Part shown: positions 3,566 through 27,680 of the stretch, piece after piece
Layout: each line of letters starts with the position of its first letter
How positions within the stretch are numbered: position 1 is the stretch's first letter
Origin: Anaerolinea sp.
Lineage (GTDB): Bacteria > Chloroflexota > Anaerolineae > Aggregatilineales > Phototrophicaceae
Length of the DNA: 32,374 bases
Assembly (NCBI GenBank): GCA_014879865.1
Contig: JACSRG010000381.1
Span: 1 to 32,374 of the forward strand
Reading direction: 5' to 3'
Program-made: the position numbers and the translations under genes
The notes under the pieces: generated by a model
The model's database searches: none
What the model was told of the DNA's origin: nothing
Seen by the model: only the letters and a program-made list of their open reading frames with translations

Positions 3566-4513
3566 TCACGCCGCCGCAAGGGCGGCACGCGGTACGCTCA
3601 CGGTGATGCGTGTGCCCGCCGCCGGTTCGCTGGCAACCTTGAACTGCCCCCCTAAGTGCGCCATCCGCTCACGGATTCCGAGCAAGCCAAAATGCCCGTA
3701 GCTGGCGAACTCTTGAAGCTGGCGCGGAAGCTCGAAGCCCCGCCCATCATCGCTCACTTCGAGCGTGACGGCAGCAGGCGCGTAAATCAGCGTGGCTGTA
3801 ATGCGATGCGCGAGGGCGTGGCGCTCCGCGTTGCAGATCGCTTCTTGCGCGGCGCGGAAGAGCGCCAACTCCTGCGCATGATCGATCTCATAGGCACAGC
3901 CTGCGACCGAAAACTCAAGGTTGGGGTGATCTTCGCAGAGGATTTCGATGGCTGCGGCGAGTCCGAGTTCGTCAAGGACCGTCGGGCGCAGATTGGCGAT
4001 CAATTGGCGCAAGCCGTCGATGCAGCGAATCAACTGCGCGCGCGCGGTATCGAGATGGACGGATGCATCGCTGGCAAGTGCCTTGATAGGGTGTGCCGCA
4101 CGCTCAAGGCTGTGCGCGACCACCACCAGCGACTGGATCGTATCATCGTGGATTTCGCGGGCGATGCGCAGGCGTTCGGTCTCCTGACTTTCTGTCAGCG
4201 CATTGCGATAGACGATCTCCCGTTCCTGTGCCTGTTTGATCTGCCCGATCATGTGCTGGAGCGAACGGCGGAGCTGTTCCACTTCCCAGATGCCGCTGCT
4301 CGGAGTATCAAATTCCGGTAGTTTCCCGTCGATGATGCTGGCAGCCTGCTTCGCCAGTCGTCGGAGCGGCAGCAGCACGCGCAGCGCCACCCAAAGCATA
4401 CCGATCAGGAAGATGAACAGGGAAATCAGGATGCACCAGTGCAGCACTCCATCAAAATGGACAATCTGGCTGGCGTCGTTGATGACGTTGGTGACGGTGT
4501 TTGCGTGGTTCAT
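3566..4513 (-). CDS. NarL-type sensor histidine kinase
   Basis: The 315-residue protein has one transmembrane helix (about 25-48), a HAMP-like linker (about 45-100), a HisKA_3 dimerisation domain with the phosphoacceptor in AREIHDDTIQSL (His122), and an HATPase domain. The HATPase N box is EAICNAERHA and the G boxes are DDGRGFELP and GHFGLLGIRERM. Only about 24 residues precede the membrane helix, so there is no extracytoplasmic sensor domain and the signal is probably sensed at the membrane or through the HAMP region. Its ATG overlaps the stop of the upstream response regulator by four bases (ATGA), so the two are translationally coupled. The order regulator first, kinase second is clear. 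The stimulus is unknown. Confidence 0.93.
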   Translation of the reverse strand: MNHANTVTNVINDASQIVHFDGVLHWCILISLFIFLIGMLWVALRVLLPLRRLAKQAASIIDGKLPEFDTPSSGIWEVEQLRRSLQHMIGQIKQAQEREIVYRNALTESQETERLRIAREIHDDTIQSLVVVAHSLERAAHPIKALASDASVHLDTARAQLIRCIDGLRQLIANLRPTVLDELGLAAAIEILCEDHPNLEFSVAGCAYEIDHAQELALFRAAQEAICNAERHALAHRITATLIYAPAAVTLEVSDDGRGFELPRQLQEFASYGHFGLLGIRERMAHLGGQFKVASEPAAGTRITVSVPRAALAAA

Positions 4514-5133
4514 TCGACTGCTCCATCGAGCGGCTGGATAATACCGAGCGTCAGGGCGCGCAGCACCATTTCTGTGCGATTGGTGACATCAAGTTTTTGA
4601 AAGATCGTTTGCAAGTGAACTTGGACAGTCCGATCCGATATGCCGAGATGACTGCCGATCTGCTTGTTCGTCCAGCCGCGCGCGGCGCAGGTCAGCACCT
4701 CCTGTTCACGGGCTGTCAGCGTGTGATGTGCTTCTGTCCGTGTCAGTTGCGGCGGCGCTGCTGCCGTCTGCTCTTCACCGAGCACGCGCCGGATGACCGT
4801 CAGGAGTTCGGAAAACTCGGCGGTCTTCAGGACGAAATCGGCTGCGCCTGCCTCGCTCAGGGCGCGCTGATAGGCTTTTTCGTTATAGGCGGTCAGCGCG
4901 ATCACCCGAATGTTTGGGCACTGCTGCCGGATACGGCGTGTGGCTTCGATACCGTTCATTTCGGGCAGATGGACATCCATGATCACCACATCGGGTTGAA
5001 GGCGCACAGCTTGCTCGAGAGCATCAGCGCCCGTGCCGGCTTCGCCGACGACTTCGAGCGCCTCACCTTCTAGAAACGCACGGATACTCTGCCTGACTAA
5101 TACGTGATCTTCAGCTAGAAGTAAACGGGTCAT
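4510..5133 (-). CDS. NarL/FixJ-family response regulator
   Basis: The protein is 207 residues. The N-terminal receiver has the acidic pair E8/D9, the phosphoacceptor D53 in VIMDVHLPEMNG, T81 and K103. The C-terminal LuxR-type helix-turn-helix starts at LTAREQEVL and contains the recognition segment LGISDRTVQVHL. Phosphorylation by the HisKA_3 kinase encoded immediately downstream (four-base overlap) would drive dimerisation and DNA binding. Regulated genes are unknown. In the minus-strand direction it lies downstream of the tRNA-Gln terminator (5191-5221), so the pair is transcribed separately from gltX. Confidence 0.95.
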   Translation of the reverse strand: MTRLLLAEDHVLVRQSIRAFLEGEALEVVGEAGTGADALEQAVRLQPDVVIMDVHLPEMNGIEATRRIRQQCPNIRVIALTAYNEKAYQRALSEAGAADFVLKTAEFSELLTVIRRVLGEEQTAAAPPQLTRTEAHHTLTAREQEVLTCAARGWTNKQIGSHLGISDRTVQVHLQTIFQKLDVTNRTEMVLRALTLGIIQPLDGAVE

Positions 5134-5190
5134 GTTTGGGGACTCTGTGAAATGCGTAACACATATACCATAACATCAAATCAGAATAAC

Positions 5191-5221
5191 AAAAAGCCCA
5201 TCCATTGCACATGGATGGGCT
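5191..5221 (-). terminator. Rho-independent terminator of the tRNA-Gln transcript
   Basis: On the minus strand an 11-pair perfect stem, AGCCCATCCAT with ATGGATGGGCT (plus coordinates 5195-5205 and 5211-5221) and a five-base loop, is followed by a run of T (5191-5195). It sits 12 bases after the tRNA-Gln 3' end. It is the clearest intrinsic terminator in the window. Confidence 0.85.
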
Positions 5222-5232
5222 TGACTTTGTAA

Positions 5233-5303
5233 CTGAGGGACCTGGATTCGAACCAGGATTAATGGATCCAGAGTCCACTGTTCTGCCGTTGAACTATCCC
5301 TCA
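5233..5303 (-). tRNA. tRNA-Gln (anticodon CUG)
   Basis: The minus strand folds into a complete cloverleaf. The acceptor is TGAGGGA paired with TCCCTCA, the D arm GTTC/GAAC, and the anticodon stem GTGGA/TCCAT around the loop CTCTGGA, giving anticodon CTG. The T arm is CCTGG/CCAGG with loop TTCGAAT. The discriminator base is G, as expected for tRNA-Gln, and the 3' CCA is not encoded. It decodes CAG. The gene has its own promoter (5316-5344) and terminator (5191-5221) and sits between gltX and the two-component genes, with glnS 1.8 kb away. Confidence 0.95.
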
Positions 5304-5315
5304 TCAACGAGGCGC

Positions 5316-5344
5316 ATTGTATCATGCGCCCCTTAAGCATACAA
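5316..5344 (-). promoter_or_regulatory. tRNA-Gln promoter
   Basis: On the minus strand a -35 TTGTAT (5339-5344) and an extended -10 TGATACAAT (hexamer at 5316-5321) are spaced by 17 bases. Transcription would start near 5309, only a few bases before the mature tRNA 5' end. It lies just beyond the gltX stop codon. Confidence 0.65.
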
Positions 5345-5362
5345 GGCTCAGTCTGGGTTTCG

Positions 5363-7030
5363 TTAAGGATTCGAGATAAGCGCTGCGACACGATCCATGC
5401 GCCGTGTGATACGCTCGCGTCCCATAATTTTCAAGATTTCGTACAAGTCGGGCGTGTTGGTGCGTCCGGTCAGCGCTACGCGGACGATCATCATCACATC
5501 GCCGAAGTGCCCCTTGTACTGATCGGGCGCTTTCTTGTAGGTTTTCGCGTCGCGCGCGAATCCCAATGTCTCGCCCAAGGAGCGCATTTCATCCAACCAC
5601 GTTTCTTTGGTCTGCGCCGGGTCGAATGCGCGCACCCGATCCAACACCGCCGTGACCACATCCGGCGTATAGGCTGGCATCGGGAAGGATGCGGCGATGC
5701 TGTCCTCGTACAGCGCGTCGAAGAAGAACCCGACAGCGCGCTCGATGTCCGACCAGTTCACAATGTCCTTGCGCGGCGCTTGCCCGATGCGCTCCAAGTT
5801 GAAGACGGCGACTCCGTACACCGGATCGGCTTCCAGCAGTGCCGCCAAGCGCGGTTGATACTGCCGTGCCCATGCCAGCCCGTAGGCGTAGACCTGCTCG
5901 GCACTGTACGAGGCGATCACATCCTTGCTGATGTCGTTCAGCTTGACGAGGTCGAACAGCGGGCTGGCAACGCCCATGTCTTCGAGCCTGAGAGGAAACT
6001 CCTGATAGGGCTGATCCGGGTTCGCTTTGCGCCAGTCGTAGAACGACGAGTTCGCCAAGTTCAGCAGATATTCGCTCACCGCCTGCACCGGATACCCCGC
6101 CTCGTAATAGTACATCACGTTGGCTTCAGGGTCTTTGCGCTTGCTCAGCTTGCGCTTGGATGTGCCGTCCAGTTTGGCAATCGGGGCGACATGCGCGAAC
6201 GCCGGGATCGGCAAGCCGAGGAATTCAAACGTCTGGATGTGCAGCGGCGCGGACGCCAGCCACTCGTCGCCACGAATGACCGGGTTAACGTGCATGAGCG
6301 TGTCATCAACCACATGCGCGAAATGGTAGGTCGGCAGGCTGTTCGACTTAAGCAGCACGCTGTCAAGGTCATTGGCGGGCATGTCAATCGCACCCTTGAT
6401 CACATCGGTGAAGCGCACGCGCCCCTCGTTGGGGTAGGGCGCGCGGATGCGGATTACCGGGCGTTCGCCCGCGTCCAACCGCTCCTTGACCCGCTCCAGC
6501 GGTGCATTACGCCAGATCGCCCAACTGCCGTAGTAGCCCGGCTTGACGTTCTGTGCTTCCTGTGACTTGCGCAGACGATCCAGTTCGTCTTCGGTGCAGA
6601 AACACGGGTAAGCATGTCCCTGTTCGACCATGTATTTGGCGAATGTCTCGTAGATTTCTACCCGCTGACTCTGCACGTAGGGCGCATATGCACCGCGTTC
6701 GACCAGCGGATCGACACTGACGTAGCCTTCGTCGGGCGTCAGGTCGAAGTTGATCAGGTTCGTGACGATTTCCTCGACGCTGCGATCCTGTTCGCGCTTT
6801 TTGTCAGTGTCTTCGATGCGCAGGAAGAAAACGCCGCCGCTTTGATGTGCCACACGCCGGCAGACGAGCGAAGTCATCAAGCTGCCGATGTGGACGAATC
6901 CGGTCGGGCTGGGCGCGAAGCGAGTGACTTTCGCTCCCACCGGAAGATCACGCGGCGGATACTGGGCGAAATAATCTCTCGGCGTTTTGGTGATGTGCGG
7001 GAAAAGCAGGTCTGCGAGTGCTTTCGACAT
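5363..7030 (-). CDS. gltX: Glutamyl-tRNA synthetase (long form)
   Basis: This class I synthetase charges tRNA-Glu in the cytoplasm. The N-terminal signature is FAPSPTGFVHIGS (HIGS at residues 47-50). The second signature is KLSKR at 294-298, followed by an all-helical C-terminal anticodon-binding region. At 555 residues it is longer than the common 460-500. About 35 extra residues precede the catalytic fold (LLFPHITKTPRDYF and following), a feature I associate with a divergent GltX branch. It lies 20 bases downstream of rodA in the same direction and so probably shares the mre/min transcript. Whether it is discriminating or also mischarges tRNA-Gln cannot be told; the GlnRS gene nearby favours a discriminating enzyme. 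Confidence 0.95.
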   Translation of the reverse strand: MSKALADLLFPHITKTPRDYFAQYPPRDLPVGAKVTRFAPSPTGFVHIGSLMTSLVCRRVAHQSGGVFFLRIEDTDKKREQDRSVEEIVTNLINFDLTPDEGYVSVDPLVERGAYAPYVQSQRVEIYETFAKYMVEQGHAYPCFCTEDELDRLRKSQEAQNVKPGYYGSWAIWRNAPLERVKERLDAGERPVIRIRAPYPNEGRVRFTDVIKGAIDMPANDLDSVLLKSNSLPTYHFAHVVDDTLMHVNPVIRGDEWLASAPLHIQTFEFLGLPIPAFAHVAPIAKLDGTSKRKLSKRKDPEANVMYYYEAGYPVQAVSEYLLNLANSSFYDWRKANPDQPYQEFPLRLEDMGVASPLFDLVKLNDISKDVIASYSAEQVYAYGLAWARQYQPRLAALLEADPVYGVAVFNLERIGQAPRKDIVNWSDIERAVGFFFDALYEDSIAASFPMPAYTPDVVTAVLDRVRAFDPAQTKETWLDEMRSLGETLGFARDAKTYKKAPDQYKGHFGDVMMIVRVALTGRTNTPDLYEILKIMGRERITRRMDRVAALISNP

Positions 7031-7050
7031 ATGGTTGCCTTTGCCTGATG

Positions 7051-8154
7051 CTAGAGCCGACGGCGGCGCATGGTGACGCTCTGCACCAAGCCGATTCCAG
7101 CAAGAGTCGATAACAGTGAAGTGCCACCAGAGCTAATAAATGGCAGAGTCAATCCGGTTACGGGCATGAGACTGAGATTCATGCCAATGGACACCAGCGT
7201 TTGAAAGAAAATAAAGGCGGCGACGCCGTAGCAGATCAAACTGCCGAGCGGATCAACCGCACGACGCGCGGCGCGCAGAATGCGGAAGATCACCAGACCA
7301 ATCGCCGCCATGACCGCCATGCCACCGACCAAGCCAAATTCCTCTGCGATCACGCTGAAGATGAAGTCCGTGTGGCGCACGCGCAAGAAGCGTCCCGTAT
7401 TCTGCGGACCCTGTGCGTAGCCCTTGCCGAACAATCCGCCCGACCCGATGGCGATACGCGCTTGGCGGATGTTGTAGTAGGCGTCGGGATCGCTTTCGGC
7501 AAAGAAGAAGGAGGTAATGCGCTGGCGCTGATAGCCTTCCATCTGCGACCAGACGAGCGGAACGGTGATGGGCGCGCTGATCCCGACGACGAGCGCGAAG
7601 CTGGCGATATGTTTGAGGCGCAAGCCGGATGCCCACAGCATTACCACCCACATGACCATGAACACGATGGTCATGCCGAGGTCGGGTTGGCTGAAAATCA
7701 AGACGGTGGGGACACCGACATGGATCGCGGATTTAATCAGCGTGCCAAGTTCACCCATGCGCTCGTAATTGCGCGAGAGAAAGACGCCGAGCGTGATAAT
7801 AATCAGCACTTTAGCGATTTCGGAAGGTTGAATGCGGATACCGAGGTTCAGCCAGCTTTGCGCGCCGCCATCGCCTTCCACGCCAAACAGCTTGACGAGG
7901 ACGAGCAGCACGATCATCAGCAGATAAAGCCATTGATGCAGACCGCTCAACAAGCGGTAATCGAGCGCGGCGAGTCCCAGAAGCACCAGCAAGCCGACGA
8001 ACATGAAACGAATCTGGTCGGGGACGCGATTAATCAGTTCGGGGTCAACTGCGCCAAGAGTGGCGCTGCGAATCATCAAGATGCCAAAGACGGTCAGCAG
8101 GATGGTCGCCCCGAAGAGGACGTAGTCAAACTGCCGCCAAATGCCTTGAGTCAT
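7051..8154 (-). CDS. rodA: SEDS-family peptidoglycan glycosyltransferase RodA
   Basis: RodA polymerises lipid II into glycan strands during cell elongation, partnered with the class B PBP encoded by mrdA in the same cluster. The 367-residue protein shows about ten membrane helices. The family motifs are QPSEIAKV (109-116), the extracellular VRHTDFIFSVIAEEFG segment with the catalytic-type Asp263 (equivalent to E. coli Asp262), and the C-terminal LPFISSGGTSLL. The choice of RodA over FtsW rests on proximity to mreBCD and mrdA. A possible -10 (TATAAT) lies upstream at 8190-8195, so it may have an additional promoter downstream of minE. Confidence 0.93.
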   Translation of the reverse strand: MTQGIWRQFDYVLFGATILLTVFGILMIRSATLGAVDPELINRVPDQIRFMFVGLLVLLGLAALDYRLLSGLHQWLYLLMIVLLVLVKLFGVEGDGGAQSWLNLGIRIQPSEIAKVLIIITLGVFLSRNYERMGELGTLIKSAIHVGVPTVLIFSQPDLGMTIVFMVMWVVMLWASGLRLKHIASFALVVGISAPITVPLVWSQMEGYQRQRITSFFFAESDPDAYYNIRQARIAIGSGGLFGKGYAQGPQNTGRFLRVRHTDFIFSVIAEEFGLVGGMAVMAAIGLVIFRILRAARRAVDPLGSLICYGVAAFIFFQTLVSIGMNLSLMPVTGLTLPFISSGGTSLLSTLAGIGLVQSVTMRRRRL

Positions 8155-8189
8155 GACGATGTGTCCAACTTATAAACCAGCACTTCCCG

Positions 8190-8195
8190 CATTAT
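8190..8195 (-). promoter_or_regulatory. Possible -10 element upstream of rodA
   Basis: On the minus strand a perfect TATAAT hexamer lies in the 87-base gap between minE and rodA, about 36 bases before the rodA ATG. No convincing -35 is present and the TG extension is absent, so this is only a candidate internal promoter. Confidence 0.3.
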
Positions 8196-8241
8196 ATCGG
8201 CGGCGGGGCGTGGAGGGAAGGTGTGGTGTTGTGCACGCCTG

Positions 8242-8562
8242 CTACAGCGCTTGATCCGCCTTCGCGTCCGGATCATCTTTCTCAACCCCTTCCATCGTCT
8301 TGAAGAAGGGGATTTCGGCGATCAACAAACTATTGCGGTCACGCTGCTGGAGGGCAATATCGACGTGGTCGTTATCGACGGAGACATATTTCGAGATCAC
8401 GTCAAGGATTTCGCGCTTCAATGCCTCCATCTTTTCAGGCGGCAGGTTGATGCGATCATGGATGAGGACGAACTGCAATCGCTCTTTTGCCATACTCCCG
8501 CTCTTTTTGTTGGCGGGAGGTGAACTGCGACCAAACACCCGGTCAAATAGGTTCGGCATCAT
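8242..8562 (-). CDS. minE: Cell division topological specificity factor MinE
   Basis: MinE stimulates the MinD ATPase and drives Min relocation, confining division to midcell. The protein is 106 residues, slightly longer than the usual 85-90 because of a charged tail. The N-terminal segment NLFDRVFGR fits the membrane-targeting amphipathic helix. AKERLQFVLIHDRINLPPE (25-43) is the anti-MinCD region, followed by the beta dimerisation domain VDIALQQRDRNSLLIAEIPF. It begins with two Met codons, and the first ATG overlaps the minD stop by four bases. A GGAGAG site inside the minD end precedes it. The order minC-minD-minE is the canonical one. Confidence 0.93.
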   Translation of the reverse strand: MMPNLFDRVFGRSSPPANKKSGSMAKERLQFVLIHDRINLPPEKMEALKREILDVISKYVSVDNDHVDIALQQRDRNSLLIAEIPFFKTMEGVEKDDPDAKADQAL

Positions 8563-9362
8563 CGCTCTCCCCCTGCAAATAGGCGCGCGAGGCGCTTGAA
8601 CAGTCCCTTGGACTCGGTTAACTGCATGAAGGGGACAGTCTCCCCCATCAAACGGCGGGCGATGTTGCGAAAAGCTTGTCCTGCCCGCGAGTTTTCATTG
8701 AGCGTAACCGGAATCCCGCTGTTGGACGATGGGATAACGGTCTCATCTTCCGGCACAATGCCGATCAGCTTGATTGCCAGCAGATCGGTGACATCTTCCG
8801 GGGAGAGCATTTCTCCCTTGCGTACCATGTCCGCTTTGATGCGGTTGAGAATGAGCTGACCCGGACCTTTGTTCTCGGCTTCGAGCAGCCCGATGACGCG
8901 ATCAGCATCGCGGACGGCTGAAACTTCGGGGTTGGTGACGATCAAGACCTCGTCGGCAGGGGCGACGGCATTGCGGAAACCACGTTCAATTCCGGCAGGG
9001 GAGTCGATGACGATGAAATCGAATTCGGTGCGCAGACCATCGGTAAGCTGAATCATGTCGGCGGGACTCACGGCGGTCTTGTCGCGGGTCTGCGCGGCAG
9101 GGATCAAGTAGAGTTCGGGAAAACTCTTGTGCTTGATCATCGCTTGGCGCGCTTTGCAGCGTCCCTCGACAACATCCACCAGATCGTAGACGATGCGATT
9201 CTCCAAACCCATCACGATATCGAGGTTGCGCAAGCCGATATCCGCGTCGATCAGAACGACTTTTTGATTCAGACGCGCCAGCGCCACGCCTATATTCGCG
9301 GTCGTCGTCGTCTTGCCGACCCCGCCTTTCCCCGAAGTAATGGTTACGACCTTACCCCCCAT
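8559..9362 (-). CDS. minD: Septum-site determining ATPase MinD
   Basis: MinD is a membrane-cycling deviant Walker ATPase that recruits MinC to block FtsZ assembly away from midcell. The 267 residues begin with the deviant Walker A KGGVGKTTT (12-20). Switch I/II-type segments follow at IDADIGLRNLD (38-48) and VIDSPAGIERG (117-127). The C-terminus FKRLARLFAGGER is a typical amphipathic membrane-targeting sequence. The gene lies between minC (21-base gap) and minE (four-base overlap), so all three are cotranscribed. There is no sign of a ParA-type DNA-binding extension. Confidence 0.96.
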   Translation of the reverse strand: MGGKVVTITSGKGGVGKTTTTANIGVALARLNQKVVLIDADIGLRNLDIVMGLENRIVYDLVDVVEGRCKARQAMIKHKSFPELYLIPAAQTRDKTAVSPADMIQLTDGLRTEFDFIVIDSPAGIERGFRNAVAPADEVLIVTNPEVSAVRDADRVIGLLEAENKGPGQLILNRIKADMVRKGEMLSPEDVTDLLAIKLIGIVPEDETVIPSSNSGIPVTLNENSRAGQAFRNIARRLMGETVPFMQLTESKGLFKRLARLFAGGER

Positions 9363-9383
9363 GCAGCGCTTTCTCCTCGTTGG

Positions 9384-10067
9384 TTAGCCCCACGTCTCGA
9401 CGATGATCTGCCGGTCACGAATGGATGCGATTTCCGGTCGCACCTTGTGCCGCTTGTCTTTCGGCGGAATGCTGATGTATCCCGCGATCCGTAATTGTGT
9501 CGGCGTCATGTCCAGCGCGCAGATCACGGCGCTTTCGTCGCCGTCTGCCCCCGCGTGGACATTGCCGCGTAGTCGTCCCCAGACGATCACATCACCCGCC
9601 GCGATGATCTCCGCGCCGGGGTTGACATCGCCAAAGACGACCACATGTCCTTGACTGTGTACCGTGCGCCCGGAGCGCAGCGTGCGCCGGATCATCACGC
9701 CGAGTGTGCCATCCTCTTCCGGGTTGAACGGCGCGCTGTCCGGGTTTTGCGCTCCCGGCGTGGCGGCAGTCAGGTTGGCGCGCAAGTCAAGCGCGGCAGC
9801 CGCGTCGATGGACGTAGCGCTCTCGCTCATGACTGACCACAGGCTCATGTTGCGCCGTTCAAGCATGGCTTTGAGCGAACCGAGTTCATCTTTGCGTACC
9901 GGGCGCGCACCTACGTCAAGCGTGATGCGTGCCCCGGTGAAGAACGCGCTTTGATGGTCGATGCGTGTGGCAAGGTCGTTGACAATAATCTGCCATTCCT
10001 CGCTCTCACTCACCGTGACGAGTAGACCTTCTTTGACGCCTTTGATTGCCACCGTTAGTTCACGCAT
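9384..10067 (-). CDS. minC: Septum-site determining protein MinC
   Basis: MinC is the FtsZ inhibitor of the Min system, activated on the membrane by MinD. The 227-residue protein has an N-terminal domain (about 1-100) and the characteristic right-handed beta-helix C-terminal domain (about 125-225). The C-terminal domain reads RTLRSGRTVHSQGHVVVFGD, then NPGAEIIAAGDVIVWG, then LRGNVHAGA. The linker (about 100-120) is Pro/Asn-rich. The start has a GGAG site five bases upstream. It is the first gene of the min trio, 73 bases downstream of the unknown membrane protein gene. That gap contains a small hairpin and a possible -10, so minCDE may also be transcribed separately from mrdA. Confidence 0.93.
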   Translation of the reverse strand: MRELTVAIKGVKEGLLVTVSESEEWQIIVNDLATRIDHQSAFFTGARITLDVGARPVRKDELGSLKAMLERRNMSLWSVMSESATSIDAAAALDLRANLTAATPGAQNPDSAPFNPEEDGTLGVMIRRTLRSGRTVHSQGHVVVFGDVNPGAEIIAAGDVIVWGRLRGNVHAGADGDESAVICALDMTPTQLRIAGYISIPPKDKRHKVRPEIASIRDRQIIVETWG

Positions 10068-10100
10068 GGCGACTCCGCAGTGTGTGACTTGGATTTAATG

Positions 10101-10106
10101 ATAATA
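10101..10106 (-). promoter_or_regulatory. Possible -10 upstream of minC
   Basis: A TATTAT hexamer on the minus strand lies about 34 bases before the minC ATG. The matching -35 is not evident. A six-pair hairpin (TGCGCC, loop ACT, GGCGCA at 10122-10136) sits just upstream and could instead mark the end of the preceding transcript, but it lacks a T run. Confidence 0.25.
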
Positions 10107-10140
10107 CGAAATCAGAATCTCTGCGCCACTGGCGCAAACG

Positions 10141-11301
10141 TTACCGTGCGCCGATGATGCGCAGCAGCATAAACAGCGGCAGCAGTGTGAAGACCGCCGC
10201 CGTCAGCAGTCCGGCACGCTGATCCGGTGCGCGCAGGCTTTTGCCCAGCCATTGACCGAAGGTGTAGACGGCGTAAGTCATCCACACGATCTGGATCATC
10301 AGTAGGGGGAGGAGAAGCACGGGGCGGTCTTCGCCGAAGTAGCTCAAGCCGAACAGCCCGTAGCCGCCATAGAGCAGCATCGTGACGACCCCGACCGCCG
10401 GATGCCAGCGCGCCAAGCGGGAGAGTCCGAGCACGCCGAGCGCCAAGCCGATCCATGTAAACTGCTGCACGATCAACTCGGACAAGCCGATCCAGCGGAA
10501 GGGTTCGCGCCACGCATCTCCGATTAAGAAGGGGATATGGCGCATTCCGCTTTGCTGTGCCGCGTCGGCGGTGAAGTTCCACCAGTCGTAAGCATAGTAA
10601 TTGGCAAGCAGCGAATTCACGCCGAAAACGGCGATGCTCGCAAGGATCATCCAGTAGATCGGTGACAGGCGCTGCTTGGTCAGGAATAGACCGAGCGCTA
10701 TCGCCGGGATCATCAGCGTGAACATCGGATCGTTGAGCACGCCAATCCCCAGAAGGATCAGCAGCCCAAGGCTGTGCTGGAGTCCCATTGTCCCGTGAGG
10801 AGGGGAATCCGGGCGGGGATTACTGATCAGCAGCCCGTCGATCAGCAGAAACAACGTCCATGCCGCCAGCAGGGTATTCATACGCAGTGAGCGCGGCGTG
10901 CCGATGACAGCGAGGAACAGAGCTTCGAAGATGACCAGCATCAGCGCCAGTCCGGTCGAAGGGCGCACGCCTAACCGGATGGCGACGAAACCCACTACCG
11001 CAACGCCGATCAGCGCGCCGATGACTTCGACGGGATTCAAGCTTTCCGCGCCGCCCGTTTGAATCCAGAAGGACGGGCTGAATGCCAGCGCCAGCCCGCC
11101 GATGATCGAAAGCGCCGCGCCCATCGAACGCAGCGCCAGCGCCATCCCGACGACCGCCAGCGCCATGCCCGAAGCACGGAGCAGCGGCGTCTCGCCGATC
11201 ACGAGGAAGGCAATCCACGCGATCAACCCGGCGGCAATCGCGGGCAGCCACTCATTCCAGCGAGATTGACGCCAGTTAGCGGGCTGAAGCAGGGTGGTCA
11301 T
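10141..11301 (-). CDS. Polytopic membrane protein of unknown function in the mre/min cluster
   Basis: The 386 residues contain about ten hydrophobic helices spread over the whole length, with a short basic N-terminus and a basic, Arg-ending C-terminus. I recognise no family. No SEDS, MurJ, MraY or class C glycosyltransferase motif is visible. One soluble-looking loop (about residues 225-270) carries NYYAYDWWNFTADAAQQ and WREPFRWIG, rich in aromatic residues and reminiscent of the extracytoplasmic loops of lipid-linked sugar enzymes, but that is only a resemblance. Its ATG overlaps the mrdA stop by four bases, so it is translationally coupled to PBP2. This suggests a role in envelope synthesis, but that is inferred from position alone. 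Confidence 0.8.
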   Translation of the reverse strand: MTTLLQPANWRQSRWNEWLPAIAAGLIAWIAFLVIGETPLLRASGMALAVVGMALALRSMGAALSIIGGLALAFSPSFWIQTGGAESLNPVEVIGALIGVAVVGFVAIRLGVRPSTGLALMLVIFEALFLAVIGTPRSLRMNTLLAAWTLFLLIDGLLISNPRPDSPPHGTMGLQHSLGLLILLGIGVLNDPMFTLMIPAIALGLFLTKQRLSPIYWMILASIAVFGVNSLLANYYAYDWWNFTADAAQQSGMRHIPFLIGDAWREPFRWIGLSELIVQQFTWIGLALGVLGLSRLARWHPAVGVVTMLLYGGYGLFGLSYFGEDRPVLLLPLLMIQIVWMTYAVYTFGQWLGKSLRAPDQRAGLLTAAVFTLLPLFMLLRIIGAR

Positions 11302-25247: not shown

Positions 25248-25268
25248 GCGGCGGCTGTCAGCCGCCGC
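25248..25268. terminator. Bidirectional hairpin between convergent genes
   Basis: GCGGCGGC (25248-25255) pairs perfectly with GCCGCCGC (25261-25268) around a five-base loop, directly after the TAA of the small helical protein gene and ten bases beyond the end of the convergent 73-residue gene. It is GC-rich but lacks a T tract on either strand, so termination is inferred from position. Confidence 0.45.
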
Positions 25269-25277
25269 ATCCAAATG

Positions 25278-25499
25278 TCAACCGACTTCAAAACCGGTGA
25301 TCTGCTGAATGTAACGCAGGACGATTTGATAGGCTTCAGGATCGACCATACGCGTGATCGTGTGTACCGCGCCATCTGCGTGGACTTCGACGAAGGCTTC
25401 GTGCGGCGTATCGACGTGCCGGAAGCGCGTCGCATGCTCAATATTAAAGATTTCGGTCGTGCTGTCACTCGGGGTGTATTTGATCCATGTGCCCTGCAT
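25278..25499 (-). CDS. 73-residue protein, third gene of the GTPase operon
   Basis: The ATG at 25499 is preceded by GGAGAGGA at a suitable distance; a longer in-frame reading from 25637 would overlap the upstream gene by 125 bases and has a non-coding-like Arg-rich start, so it is rejected. The product (MQGTWIKYTPSDS to ITGFEVG) is small, soluble-looking and rich in predicted beta strand, ending in a helix (DPEAYQIVLRYIQQI). I recognise no family. It starts 13 bases after the stop of the 341-residue gene and ends at a convergent hairpin, so it closes the operon. A regulatory or accessory role is only a guess. Confidence 0.65.
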   Translation of the reverse strand: MQGTWIKYTPSDSTTEIFNIEHATRFRHVDTPHEAFVEVHADGAVHTITRMVDPEAYQIVLRYIQQITGFEVG

Positions 25500-25512
25500 C
25501 GTGAATCCTCTC

Positions 25513-26538
25513 CTATTTGTGTTTTGGGGAAACGAGCGCCTCGAACAACCGAACAATCCAGCGCAGCGGATCAAATCCGCTGGGCGCGGGCGGTGGTTCC
25601 TTCTGCGTTTCGGCACGAATGCGATCTCGCATCTCACGAATGGTCAACAACGGTGTCTCGTCGGCGCTGTCATCGCCGATGAATTCACGTTGTTCGCGCG
25701 GTCGAGGTGCTGCCCGCGTGACCGGACGTTCGCCTAGCAGTTCAGGCTGCGTGTCATCCGACACCGCTATCACATCATCGGGAAGCGATGGGCGCAGCGC
25801 CATTGATGGTGCGGGCAAATCGTCATCGTCGTCATCCGGGGGCATGGGGGTTGGAATGCCCGTGCGCTGCCCCGTTTGCCGGCTGCGATACGCGGGCACG
25901 TCGGTGTTGAAGTAGCTGACCATGTCAATGGCGATATCACGCGCGTCGAATTCGCCGAGCACGCTCGAATTGGTGCCAAAGGCGAACAGCGGCGGCGAAC
26001 TGTACGCCTGATAGCTCAGCACGGCTTGAAGCAGCCGCAGTCCACGCCGCGAAAAGGGCAGATACAAGCGCTCGCCGTCAATGCGGGTGAGGAAATCGGC
26101 GACGAACTCGTCGTTCGGCAGCCGATCCGCCTTGCTCCCATGCCACTCGTAGAGCGGCGACAGGGTAACCGACTGCTGGTTGATGTCCATGCCGCCATCT
26201 AGCACGTTGAGGCGGTTGATGTCCGCGATGAACGACGGCAGCGCGACCGCCAGTTCCGCACCATCGCTTTGATGCACGGCGATCCCTTCGATCACGCCGA
26301 TGGCGCGTCCGGCATGACGGCGTCCACTGTTGTAATGGCGCACGAGCAGGTAGTACTCTCCCATAGGAAAGCAGTAGATGCTCGGAAACGAGCGTGCCAG
26401 CCGGGCGACTTCGTGCACGTAATTGAAGATGTTGCCGATGGCGCTCACGTCCTTGTTACTCAGCGCCGACGGACGCACGAACGCCGTGAAATCACGTTCT
26501 TGATTGCGTGTGAATAGAAACTGCTCGTAGCGCATCAT
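25513..26538 (-). CDS. Unknown protein of GTPase operon, GAP1-like candidate
   Basis: The 341-residue protein has a folded N-terminal region (about 1-215), an acidic low-complexity linker with six consecutive Asp (235-240), a Pro/Arg-rich tail and a C-terminal amphipathic segment FDPLRWIVRLFEALV (322-336) that could bind a membrane or a partner. The N-terminal part contains FPSIYCFPMGEYYLLVRHYN (51-70) followed by SGRRHAGRAIGVIEGIAV. This faintly recalls N-terminal domains of GTPase-associated proteins (GAP1 type) described computationally in bacterial conflict systems. The similarity is an impression, not a computed match. Its ATG overlaps the GTPase stop by four bases (ATGA), so the two proteins are made in coupled fashion and probably interact. 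Confidence 0.65.
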   Translation of the reverse strand: MMRYEQFLFTRNQERDFTAFVRPSALSNKDVSAIGNIFNYVHEVARLARSFPSIYCFPMGEYYLLVRHYNSGRRHAGRAIGVIEGIAVHQSDGAELAVALPSFIADINRLNVLDGGMDINQQSVTLSPLYEWHGSKADRLPNDEFVADFLTRIDGERLYLPFSRRGLRLLQAVLSYQAYSSPPLFAFGTNSSVLGEFDARDIAIDMVSYFNTDVPAYRSRQTGQRTGIPTPMPPDDDDDDLPAPSMALRPSLPDDVIAVSDDTQPELLGERPVTRAAPRPREQREFIGDDSADETPLLTIREMRDRIRAETQKEPPPAPSGFDPLRWIVRLFEALVSPKHK

Positions 26539-27566
26539 ACGAGCAGCGGGCGCATCTTTTTGTTCGCGGTTTTGGTCACGGTGCGGATTTTCGGTTCGAG
26601 CGCCTTCAACCGTTCCGCCATTTCGTGCCGTTCCTCATGAAGCTGCTTGATAGTCCGACCGCGCAGAATCCGCGCCAGTACATTTTTATCCAAGCGGGTG
26701 AGACGCGCTTCGAGATCGGTCATGTGCTCCTCCAACACGAGCGCCGTCCGGTCGAGTTCGTTGCCAATCGCGTAGAGGAAGGGAAACTGCACGTTCTCCG
26801 GTTCTGGTGCGCCTTCGAGCGTAAAGCTCGCCAGTTCATAGCCTTTGCCCTCGGTCGCCAGCGCCGCGTTGCCGTCGCCGACAATCGACACCGCCAACAT
26901 CGCGGAGGGATAAAGCCACGGACGCAGCCCGCTGACCTTCGACCGTTCCTCCAGTACGAAATCATGCACGCCTTGGAAGACCTGCCGCGCGCGGGCGTAG
27001 AGCTTCTCGTAGTTATTCTCTTTGAATTCGTCCGGCAGCGCATCAGCTTTCGTCAGGACAATCGTGATCGTAATGCCCTCGTTGACGCCCATTTCGCCTT
27101 CCTGCGCGGGCTTGAATTTATAACTGTTGAGCAGATGGAAGATCAGCGGGGCGGAGGTCAACATGCGCGCTTCGATCAGCGGGCGGGTGGCGATGGTATA
27201 GGCATCCGCCACGATGATGACGGCGTTGCTCTCCTGAATATCGGCGTGAAGCTGCGCCGCCGCGTCGGATTCGTCGGTTGGCTGGTTGATCGCGCCGCCC
27301 TGATAATCGACCCAGAGAAAATCGGTGATGAACTGGTCTTGGAAGTACAGCCGGAACTTATCTTCACGGCGACCCATTGTCGGCGCGGGCCATTCTTTCT
27401 CCATGACGAAGTCCGCCCACGGCTTCATGTACTTCGTCGTGGTGTTCACGTCTTCGTCTTCAATGCGGAAACCATCGACGCCGTCCACCATCAGATACAG
27501 CAGCGCCAGCGTGTAGCACGTTTTTCCCTGCCCCGTGCCGCCGAACAACGTCACTTTCAACGCCAT
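26535..27566 (-). CDS. P-loop GTPase with C-terminal coiled coil, first gene of a three-gene operon
   Basis: The ATG at 27566 is chosen because AGGGA lies seven bases upstream and a promoter places transcription start near 27591; the GTG at 27632 would lie upstream of that start. The 343 residues include G1 GGTGQGKT (9-16), a possible switch-I Thr in WPAPTMGRRE, G3 WVDYQGG (Asp87, Gly90) and G4 TKAD (172-175), which argues for guanine specificity. A C-terminal coiled-coil region (about 277-330) and a basic end (TKTANKKMRPLLV) follow. The arrangement resembles TRAFAC-like bacterial GTPases of the double-GTPase/GAP1 type. The gene is followed by two small unknown genes with tight coupling. The precise subfamily needs a profile search. 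Confidence 0.8.
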   Translation of the reverse strand: MALKVTLFGGTGQGKTCYTLALLYLMVDGVDGFRIEDEDVNTTTKYMKPWADFVMEKEWPAPTMGRREDKFRLYFQDQFITDFLWVDYQGGAINQPTDESDAAAQLHADIQESNAVIIVADAYTIATRPLIEARMLTSAPLIFHLLNSYKFKPAQEGEMGVNEGITITIVLTKADALPDEFKENNYEKLYARARQVFQGVHDFVLEERSKVSGLRPWLYPSAMLAVSIVGDGNAALATEGKGYELASFTLEGAPEPENVQFPFLYAIGNELDRTALVLEEHMTDLEARLTRLDKNVLARILRGRTIKQLHEERHEMAERLKALEPKIRTVTKTANKKMRPLLV

Positions 27567-27597
27567 ATGCTTGTCCCTTGTGTGCCAATCTGCCCTT

Positions 27598-27625
27598 AGT
27601 GTAGCGTCCGTTCGGAGCGTGTCAA
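27598..27625 (-). promoter_or_regulatory. Promoter of the GTPase operon
   Basis: On the minus strand a perfect -35 TTGACA (27620-27625) and a -10 TACACT (27598-27603) are 16 bases apart. The predicted start near 27591 leaves a leader of about 25 bases to the ATG at 27566. A similar TTGACGTTACACT string lies just upstream (about 27647-27659), so the TACACT element appears twice. Confidence 0.5.
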
Positions 27626-27680
27626 TCGACACTCAGTAATCTCTAGTGTAACGTCAATACGGGTTGGGCTGCCAGCGGAT

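Follow-up and report, generated by a model that had tools for sequence, protein, structure and literature searches.

The window, the whole stretch of 32,374 nucleotides that was analyzed, is contig C62 of a 6.4-Mb draft genome of Anaerolinea sp. with an estimated contamination of 6%, and its close relatives are Chloroflexota/Anaerolineae MAGs. On its minus strand, a GTPase gene is followed by a gene encoding a 341-residue protein, referred to here as the partner, which overlaps the GTPase gene by 4 bases, and, after a gap of 13 bases, by the gene of a 73-residue protein named P0003. The features of the locus are as follows:

27598-27625, minus strand: promoter-like sequence TTGACA-16-TACACT, upstream of the GTPase ATG
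26535-27566, minus strand: GTPase, 343 residues, DO-GTPase superfamily by profile comparison, separate DYQGG branch, ATG 27566 taken as its start
27519-27542, minus strand: G1/P-loop motif GGTGQGKT, GTPase residues 9-16
27294-27308, minus strand: G3/switch II motif DYQGG, GTPase residues 87-91
27042-27053, minus strand: G4 motif TKAD, GTPase residues 172-175
25513-26538, minus strand: partner, 341 residues, overlapping the GTPase gene at 26535-26538, no family-library match
26134-26538, minus strand: predicted longin-like N-terminal domain, partner residues 1-135, from the structural model and conserved residues
25645-25812, minus strand: disordered linker in the AlphaFold model, partner residues 243-298
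25531-25569, minus strand: C-terminal hydrophobic/basic helix, partner residues 324-336, a proposed membrane tether
25278-25499, minus strand: P0003, 73 residues, a co-directional neighbor outside the conserved unit
25249-25269, no strand assigned: strong hairpin GCGGCGGCTGTCAGCCGCCGC between P0003 and the convergent gene, recognized by folding energy and without a T-run

Most of the elements described in the initial annotation were recovered. The promoter was found at 27625-27598, in a region holding four promoter-like sites against 1.0 expected, and the minus-strand GTPase frame was confirmed with its G1, G3 and G4 motifs all intact, as was the 341-residue frame with its 4-base overlap, its DDDDDD stretch and its C-terminal helix. 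The C-terminal coiled coil attributed to the GTPase is plausible (helices 269-338) and falls where the model has low confidence. The convergent hairpin was confirmed as a strong fold (-25 kcal/mol, z -3.75), but it lacks a T-run and is accordingly absent from the terminator scan, and a terminator was rejected. A GTPase start at GTG 27632 was considered and discarded in favor of ATG 27566, the most likely start, since the relatives begin at the same residue and the longer frame would contain the promoter. The relatives of the GTPase are 64-71% identical to the window protein and those of the partner about 36-40%, and this conservation indicates that both open reading frames are real genes.

The GTPase begins with MALKVTLFGG and carries neither a zinc ribbon nor a transmembrane segment. 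Its kinship with the double-GTPases, which the initial annotation had proposed, was supported by a match to the Pfam family DO-GTPase1 (PF19975; E 1.2e-4, below the cut-off) and by profile-profile comparison of the GTPase family with GAP1-linked DO-GTPases (hhalign, 93% probability, E 3.6e-7), and two of three GTPase paralogues from the cyanobacterium Calothrix exceeded the cut-off of DO-GTPase2 (PF19993) with 57 and 54 bits. Judged by these sequence comparisons, the protein is a member of the DO-GTPase superfamily in a separate branch characterized by DYQGG and the lack of a zinc ribbon. Its AlphaFold model was poor (pLDDT 56.9), and the best structural rows, those of Rag/Gtr GTPases (Z 12.8-12.4), lay within 1 of other small GTPases and are to be read as a tie. 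An NCBIfam TrmB match of the GTPase was dismissed as chance, with 17 bits versus a cut-off of 113 (E 0.0023), and sequence searches of the PDB with the GTPase, the partner or the partner profile returned nothing credible.

The distribution of both genes was surveyed at several taxonomic depths. When 98 same-family genomes were searched, 10 were matched by the GTPase profile, and the strong partner matches (E 1.6e-5 or better) fell in the identical 10 genomes, a coincidence with a chance probability of about 7e-14 under an assumption of independence that overstates the case, since the genomes are related. Both genes were neighbors in 9 of the 10 carriers, and in the remaining one, G330, the end of the contig cuts the partner. 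P0001 searched against 298 genomes of the class and A1 against 400 genomes of the phylum matched only the window's own genome; these evenly sampled sets missed the other carriers, which family- and order-level searches found. A single-protein scan of genome contigs likewise gave no relatives. For the wide scan, cyanobacterial plasmid sequences obtained as weak tblastn matches had been added to the GTPase alignment, and this alignment, run on one genome per species, detected 41 loci, of which 32 fall beyond the close Chloroflexota clade. These 32 were fetched by the GTPase alone, and 30 had usable context and two did not. The partner lay within about 160 bases of the GTPase in 29 of the 30 and one gene away in the other, and 13 of the 29 adjacent loci share the 4-base overlap of the window. 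The distant hosts comprise anammox and other Planctomycetes, cyanobacteria, Thermoguttaceae, Thiotrichaceae, Marinomonas, Ruminococcus and a divergent member of Anaerolineae (L044). Conservation of DY[QR]GG among the distant loci is partly by construction, because the scan pattern for those loci included this motif; it played no part in the selection of the window gene and the same-family genomes.

An iterative profile search that started from the Chloroflexota partners and covered 1163 neighborhood open reading frames collected 48 proteins, all encoded with GTPases of this kind, and unrelated frames stayed under the threshold. Within the genome of the window itself, the only match to the partner profile was the partner gene of the window. 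When the partner family was divided in two, the halves aligned with one another across most of the domain (P 2.9e-4); the Marinomonas and Thermoguttaceae partners were assigned by the motif R..D[FY] and position only. Viral contigs and phages yielded no match. Taken together, these results show that the GTPase and the partner are a conserved pair, almost invariably side by side, in several phyla, and that the 341-residue protein is, as had been suggested, the dedicated partner of the GTPase.

Several loci showed further features of their own. Three of them (L032, L033 and L125) hold one operon with three GTPases of the family and two partners, one predicted to have transmembrane segments and one not, and four others (L034, L123, L127 and L129) hold two GTPases each. 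In L034, plasmid pANA01 of Anabaena sp. 90, four of five consecutive operon proteins (4404-10488), namely Hsp70, partner A, the second GTPase and partner D, end in WF, an ending shared with no other of the 55 annotated coding sequences checked in this 45-kb stretch; this C-terminal WF tag was also seen in L123, L127 and L129. In the anammox loci L113 (4651-4926) and L110 (4636-4908), a related protein of ~90 residues with a hydrophobic stretch, recognized by eye, precedes the pair and is possibly a membrane component. In the assembly of Brocadia carolinensis the GTPase gene appears as two separate open reading frames (L135, 5001-6072), owing to an assembly error, a frameshift or pseudogene formation.

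The partner had no match in Pfam, NCBIfam, PADLOC or the PDB sequences, and the libraries searched contain no description of the pair, as expected from the earlier proposal of an undescribed system. Its AlphaFold model (mean pLDDT 73.5, with blocks of residues 1-110 mostly at 74-94), which rests on a shallow alignment of 9 sequences, is folded to about residue 230, then disordered in the linker at 243-298, and ends in helices at 300-311 and 324-336. When this model was compared with known structures by VIA-align, the top six rows were all longin domains of GTPase regulators (8yqg, Z 9.4; 4zy8, 8.2; 6ulg, 7.6; 9o5a, 7.5; 7o2w, 7.5; 9o5d, 7.3), the best matches of residues 1-135 being the Lokiarchaeal roadblock-longin (Z 9.4), Lst4 (8.2) and FLCN (7.6). 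The top value of 9.4 modestly exceeds 7-8, a level attained by models without relatives, yet the top rows agree coherently on one family. The next row was TagF (9t0n, Z 7.3), with 200 residues aligned within partner residues 1-232, and TagF was also the best Foldseek match (E 2.1e-3; nothing below E 0.001). On the strength of the model, the N-terminal domain of the partner is predicted to be longin-like. Longin and Roadblock domains are established GTPase-binding folds (PMC3521125). The initial annotation had cast the 341-residue protein as an effector or adaptor; the predicted fold gives it the look of a regulator or adaptor, and the effector part was not upheld, an enzyme effector having been rejected for want of a family match.

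Residues R11, D16, P23, R78 and G85 were constant in 46 aligned partners from several phyla. P23, R78 and G85 played no role in the selection of these proteins, whereas R11 and D16 belong to the motif used for trimming the alignment and their conservation is partly by construction. The C-terminal hydrophobic/basic helix is conserved in the Chloroflexota partners, and cyanobacterial partners of one type and a single Ruminococcus partner have predicted transmembrane segments in its place; the anammox partners showed neither. The hydrophobic moment of the tail stood clearly above that of shuffled sequences in the window protein only (10 of 500 shuffles, compared with 79 to 393 of 500 for the other partners).

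The reading that we favor, and consider somewhat probable, is that the pair constitutes a two-protein GTPase switch, in which a dedicated longin-like regulator is held at the membrane by its C-terminal helix or by transmembrane segments. The partner would consist of a predicted longin-like N-terminal domain, a disordered acidic or proline-rich linker and a membrane-seeking C-terminal helix, the latter replaced in many cyanobacterial relatives by predicted transmembrane segments. We infer that the longin-like domain docks near the switch regions of the GTPase and controls its nucleotide state. The position usually occupied by Gln61 is not a glutamine in the DYQGG switch II, and for this reason the partner may supply a catalytic residue in trans, with R78 or R11 as candidates. 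The linker and the tail would anchor the complex to the membrane, where the GTP-bound form might mark or recruit something.

An alternative, which appears unlikely although it stands above the other two considered below, is that the pair represents a reduced form of the DO-GTPase/GAP1-N2 conflict systems, with the partner as a GAP1-N2 lacking the M and C domains and with infection sensing coupled to an effector encoded elsewhere. Such systems (PF19975/PF19993 and PF20013) were described by Kaur et al. 2020 (PMC7159879). The homology of the GTPases noted above speaks for this alternative, as does a common gene order, with a dedicated protein encoded directly downstream of the GTPase. Two paralogous GTPases occur in 38% of the DO-GTPase systems, and Hsp70 neighbors in some GAP1-N2 systems (PMC7159879); the cyanobacterial forms of the pair have two or three GTPase copies, and one is present in the window genome, and Hsp70 is found near the pair in some cyanobacteria. 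Short GAP1-N2 proteins of about 300-380 residues exist in Chloroflexota (L148, L149 and L152). Furthermore, the combined partner profile matched GAP1-N2 with P 7.5e-4 and a score of 26.9, above all 52 decoy slices (best 19.3, P 0.016), with the DF/GF and GR positions in register. However, this match was lost when the halves of the partner alignment were compared separately (P 0.1 and 0.33) or the Chloroflexota family alone was used (P 0.36), and Pfam gave no GAP1 match. A sequence relationship between the partner and GAP1-N2 is suggestive, not proven, and the N-terminal domain is possibly GAP1-N2-like.

The differences from the canonical systems extend to both proteins. DO-GTPases have an N-terminal zinc ribbon in 60% and a transmembrane segment in 13% of cases, together with a conserved G3/Walker B glutamate (PMC7159879), and the canonical Chloroflexota DO-GTPases encoded beside GAP1-N2 genes showed cysteine-rich zinc-ribbon-type N-termini and DTAGE, DTSGE or DSSGE. 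In contrast, the pair has DYQGG/DYRGG in switch II instead of D-x-x-GE, without the G3 glutamate, and the window GTPase has no zinc ribbon. Unlike GAP1, the partner lacks the three-domain N-M-C architecture, its 341 residues ending in the disordered stretch and two short helices. Concerning a function in conflict or defense signaling, which the initial annotation had also suggested, defense-type genes lie near a few relatives, namely an HmaC-like ATPase (L044, E 8e-114) and LeoA-like dynamins (L034 and L130), but most Chloroflexota pairs are located among conserved metabolic genes without a recognizable defense island. No FNIII, GASH or effector genes were recognized by eye among the open reading frames around the window and Chloroflexota pairs, nor any conflict or defense gene beside the window pair. 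A defense role is possible for the pair and unsupported in the window. In L044 (69-1487 and 9464-11411), the divergent pair shares its contig with the HmaC-like ATPase fragment and a recombinase-like frame recognized by eye, and the locus is possibly a mobile defense island.

Other GTPase-regulator couples were compared with the pair. In the TssM-TagF couple of type VI secretion systems, tagF directly follows tssM in three annotated plasmid loci, just as the partner follows the GTPase, and the partner and TagF have a D..GR stretch in common, the part that aligns in the profile comparison; on the other hand, there was no significant sequence match (hhalign P 0.18), no Pfam match of the partners to TagF_N (PF09867) and no recognized type VI secretion gene next to the pair. 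Kinship by profile was not significant for the partner versus TagF or for GAP1-N2 versus TagF. MglA and MglB are a Ras-like GTPase and its Roadblock GAP (PMC4316618), and resemble the pair in that a small longin/roadblock-type regulator adjoins a bacterial GTPase; the window GTPase, however, is not MglA-like by Pfam, and the partner differs from MglB in its long linker and C-terminal helix and in the absence of a Robl_LC7 match, which a search with 9 partners did not yield even at E values as high as 10. The eukaryotic and Asgard longin regulators of Rag, Arf and Rab (GATOR1, FLCN-FNIP/Lst4, C9orf72-SMCR8 and the Loki roadblock-longin) share with the partner a GTPase as counterpart and the predicted fold of the N-terminal domain, a fold-level likeness drawn from a model, with no sequence similarity detected. 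Common ancestry of the partner, GAP1-N2 and TagF is advanced here as a hypothesis, and the broader proposal that the pair, DO-GTPase/GAP1-N2 and TssM/TagF are branches of an ancient and widespread bacterial GTPase-plus-longin module is speculative, and we judge it rather improbable at present. In literature largely outside subscription journals, DO-GTPase/GAP1 systems were described only in PMC7159879 and mentioned briefly in PMC11237479, and longin or TagF was linked to DO-GTPase or GAP1-N2 in no paper.

A second alternative, which seems distinctly unlikely, is that the pair serves neighboring B12-radical-SAM, amidohydrolase and ABC-transporter genes, for instance as a chaperone or localization switch for the enzymes. 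MeaB and other GTPases that act as chaperones of B12 enzymes offer a precedent, and in six Chloroflexota carriers (L036, L037, L038, L040, L041 and L043) the pair follows the same B12-type radical-SAM gene, directly or past small genes, as judged by eye. Nevertheless, six loci of the same genus (L065, L066, L068, L069, L071 and L075) retain radical-SAM genes from this block and lack the pair, the window contains the pair without those genes, and in other phyla the pair occurs in different contexts. At the site of the pair between radical SAM 1 and P0003, L071 carries two small adjacent open reading frames (5673-6227) that look by eye like a RelE-type toxin-antitoxin.

P0003 was found to be a bystander. 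It had nothing above the cut-off in Pfam, and it represents a conserved 73-residue orphan family of the genus, often encoded just upstream of a B12-type radical-SAM gene. Its homologues adjoin radical-SAM genes or sit downstream of ClpC-PMM (neighbors named by eye). The order radical SAM 1, P0003, radical SAM 2 in L065, with nothing in between, and the location of the pair just behind radical SAM 1 in several carriers (L037, L038, L040, L041 and L043, by eye) indicate that the pair is optional as a unit, with P0003 as a neighbor. The three-gene operon with the 73-residue protein as regulator, as first annotated, is consistent with the co-directional arrangement, the short gap and a weak P0003-like frame that precedes the GTPase in L036 (E 0.055), but it is very improbable and largely refuted by the survey, in which clear P0003 homologues (E below 1e-7) occurred in 11 genomes of the genus that do not have the pair and in only one of the 10 GTPase carriers, the window's own genome; the GTPase and 341-residue genes remain as the unit, and next to homologous GTPases elsewhere the partner is retained and the 73-residue gene is absent.

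The favored reading of a membrane-held GTPase switch, beside which no downstream effector was recognized in Chloroflexota, makes the pair a compact and genetically simple GTPase-regulator couple whose partner occurs in several phyla yet lies outside the libraries used. If the longin-like fold holds true, the pair would provide a test of the age of longin/roadblock control of GTPases, and a possible structural reading of GAP1-N2, from proposed conflict systems, and of TagF, from type VI secretion. Should the common module also prove true, the longin-type control of Rag, Arf and Rab in eukaryotes would have a bacterial counterpart beyond MglA-MglB.
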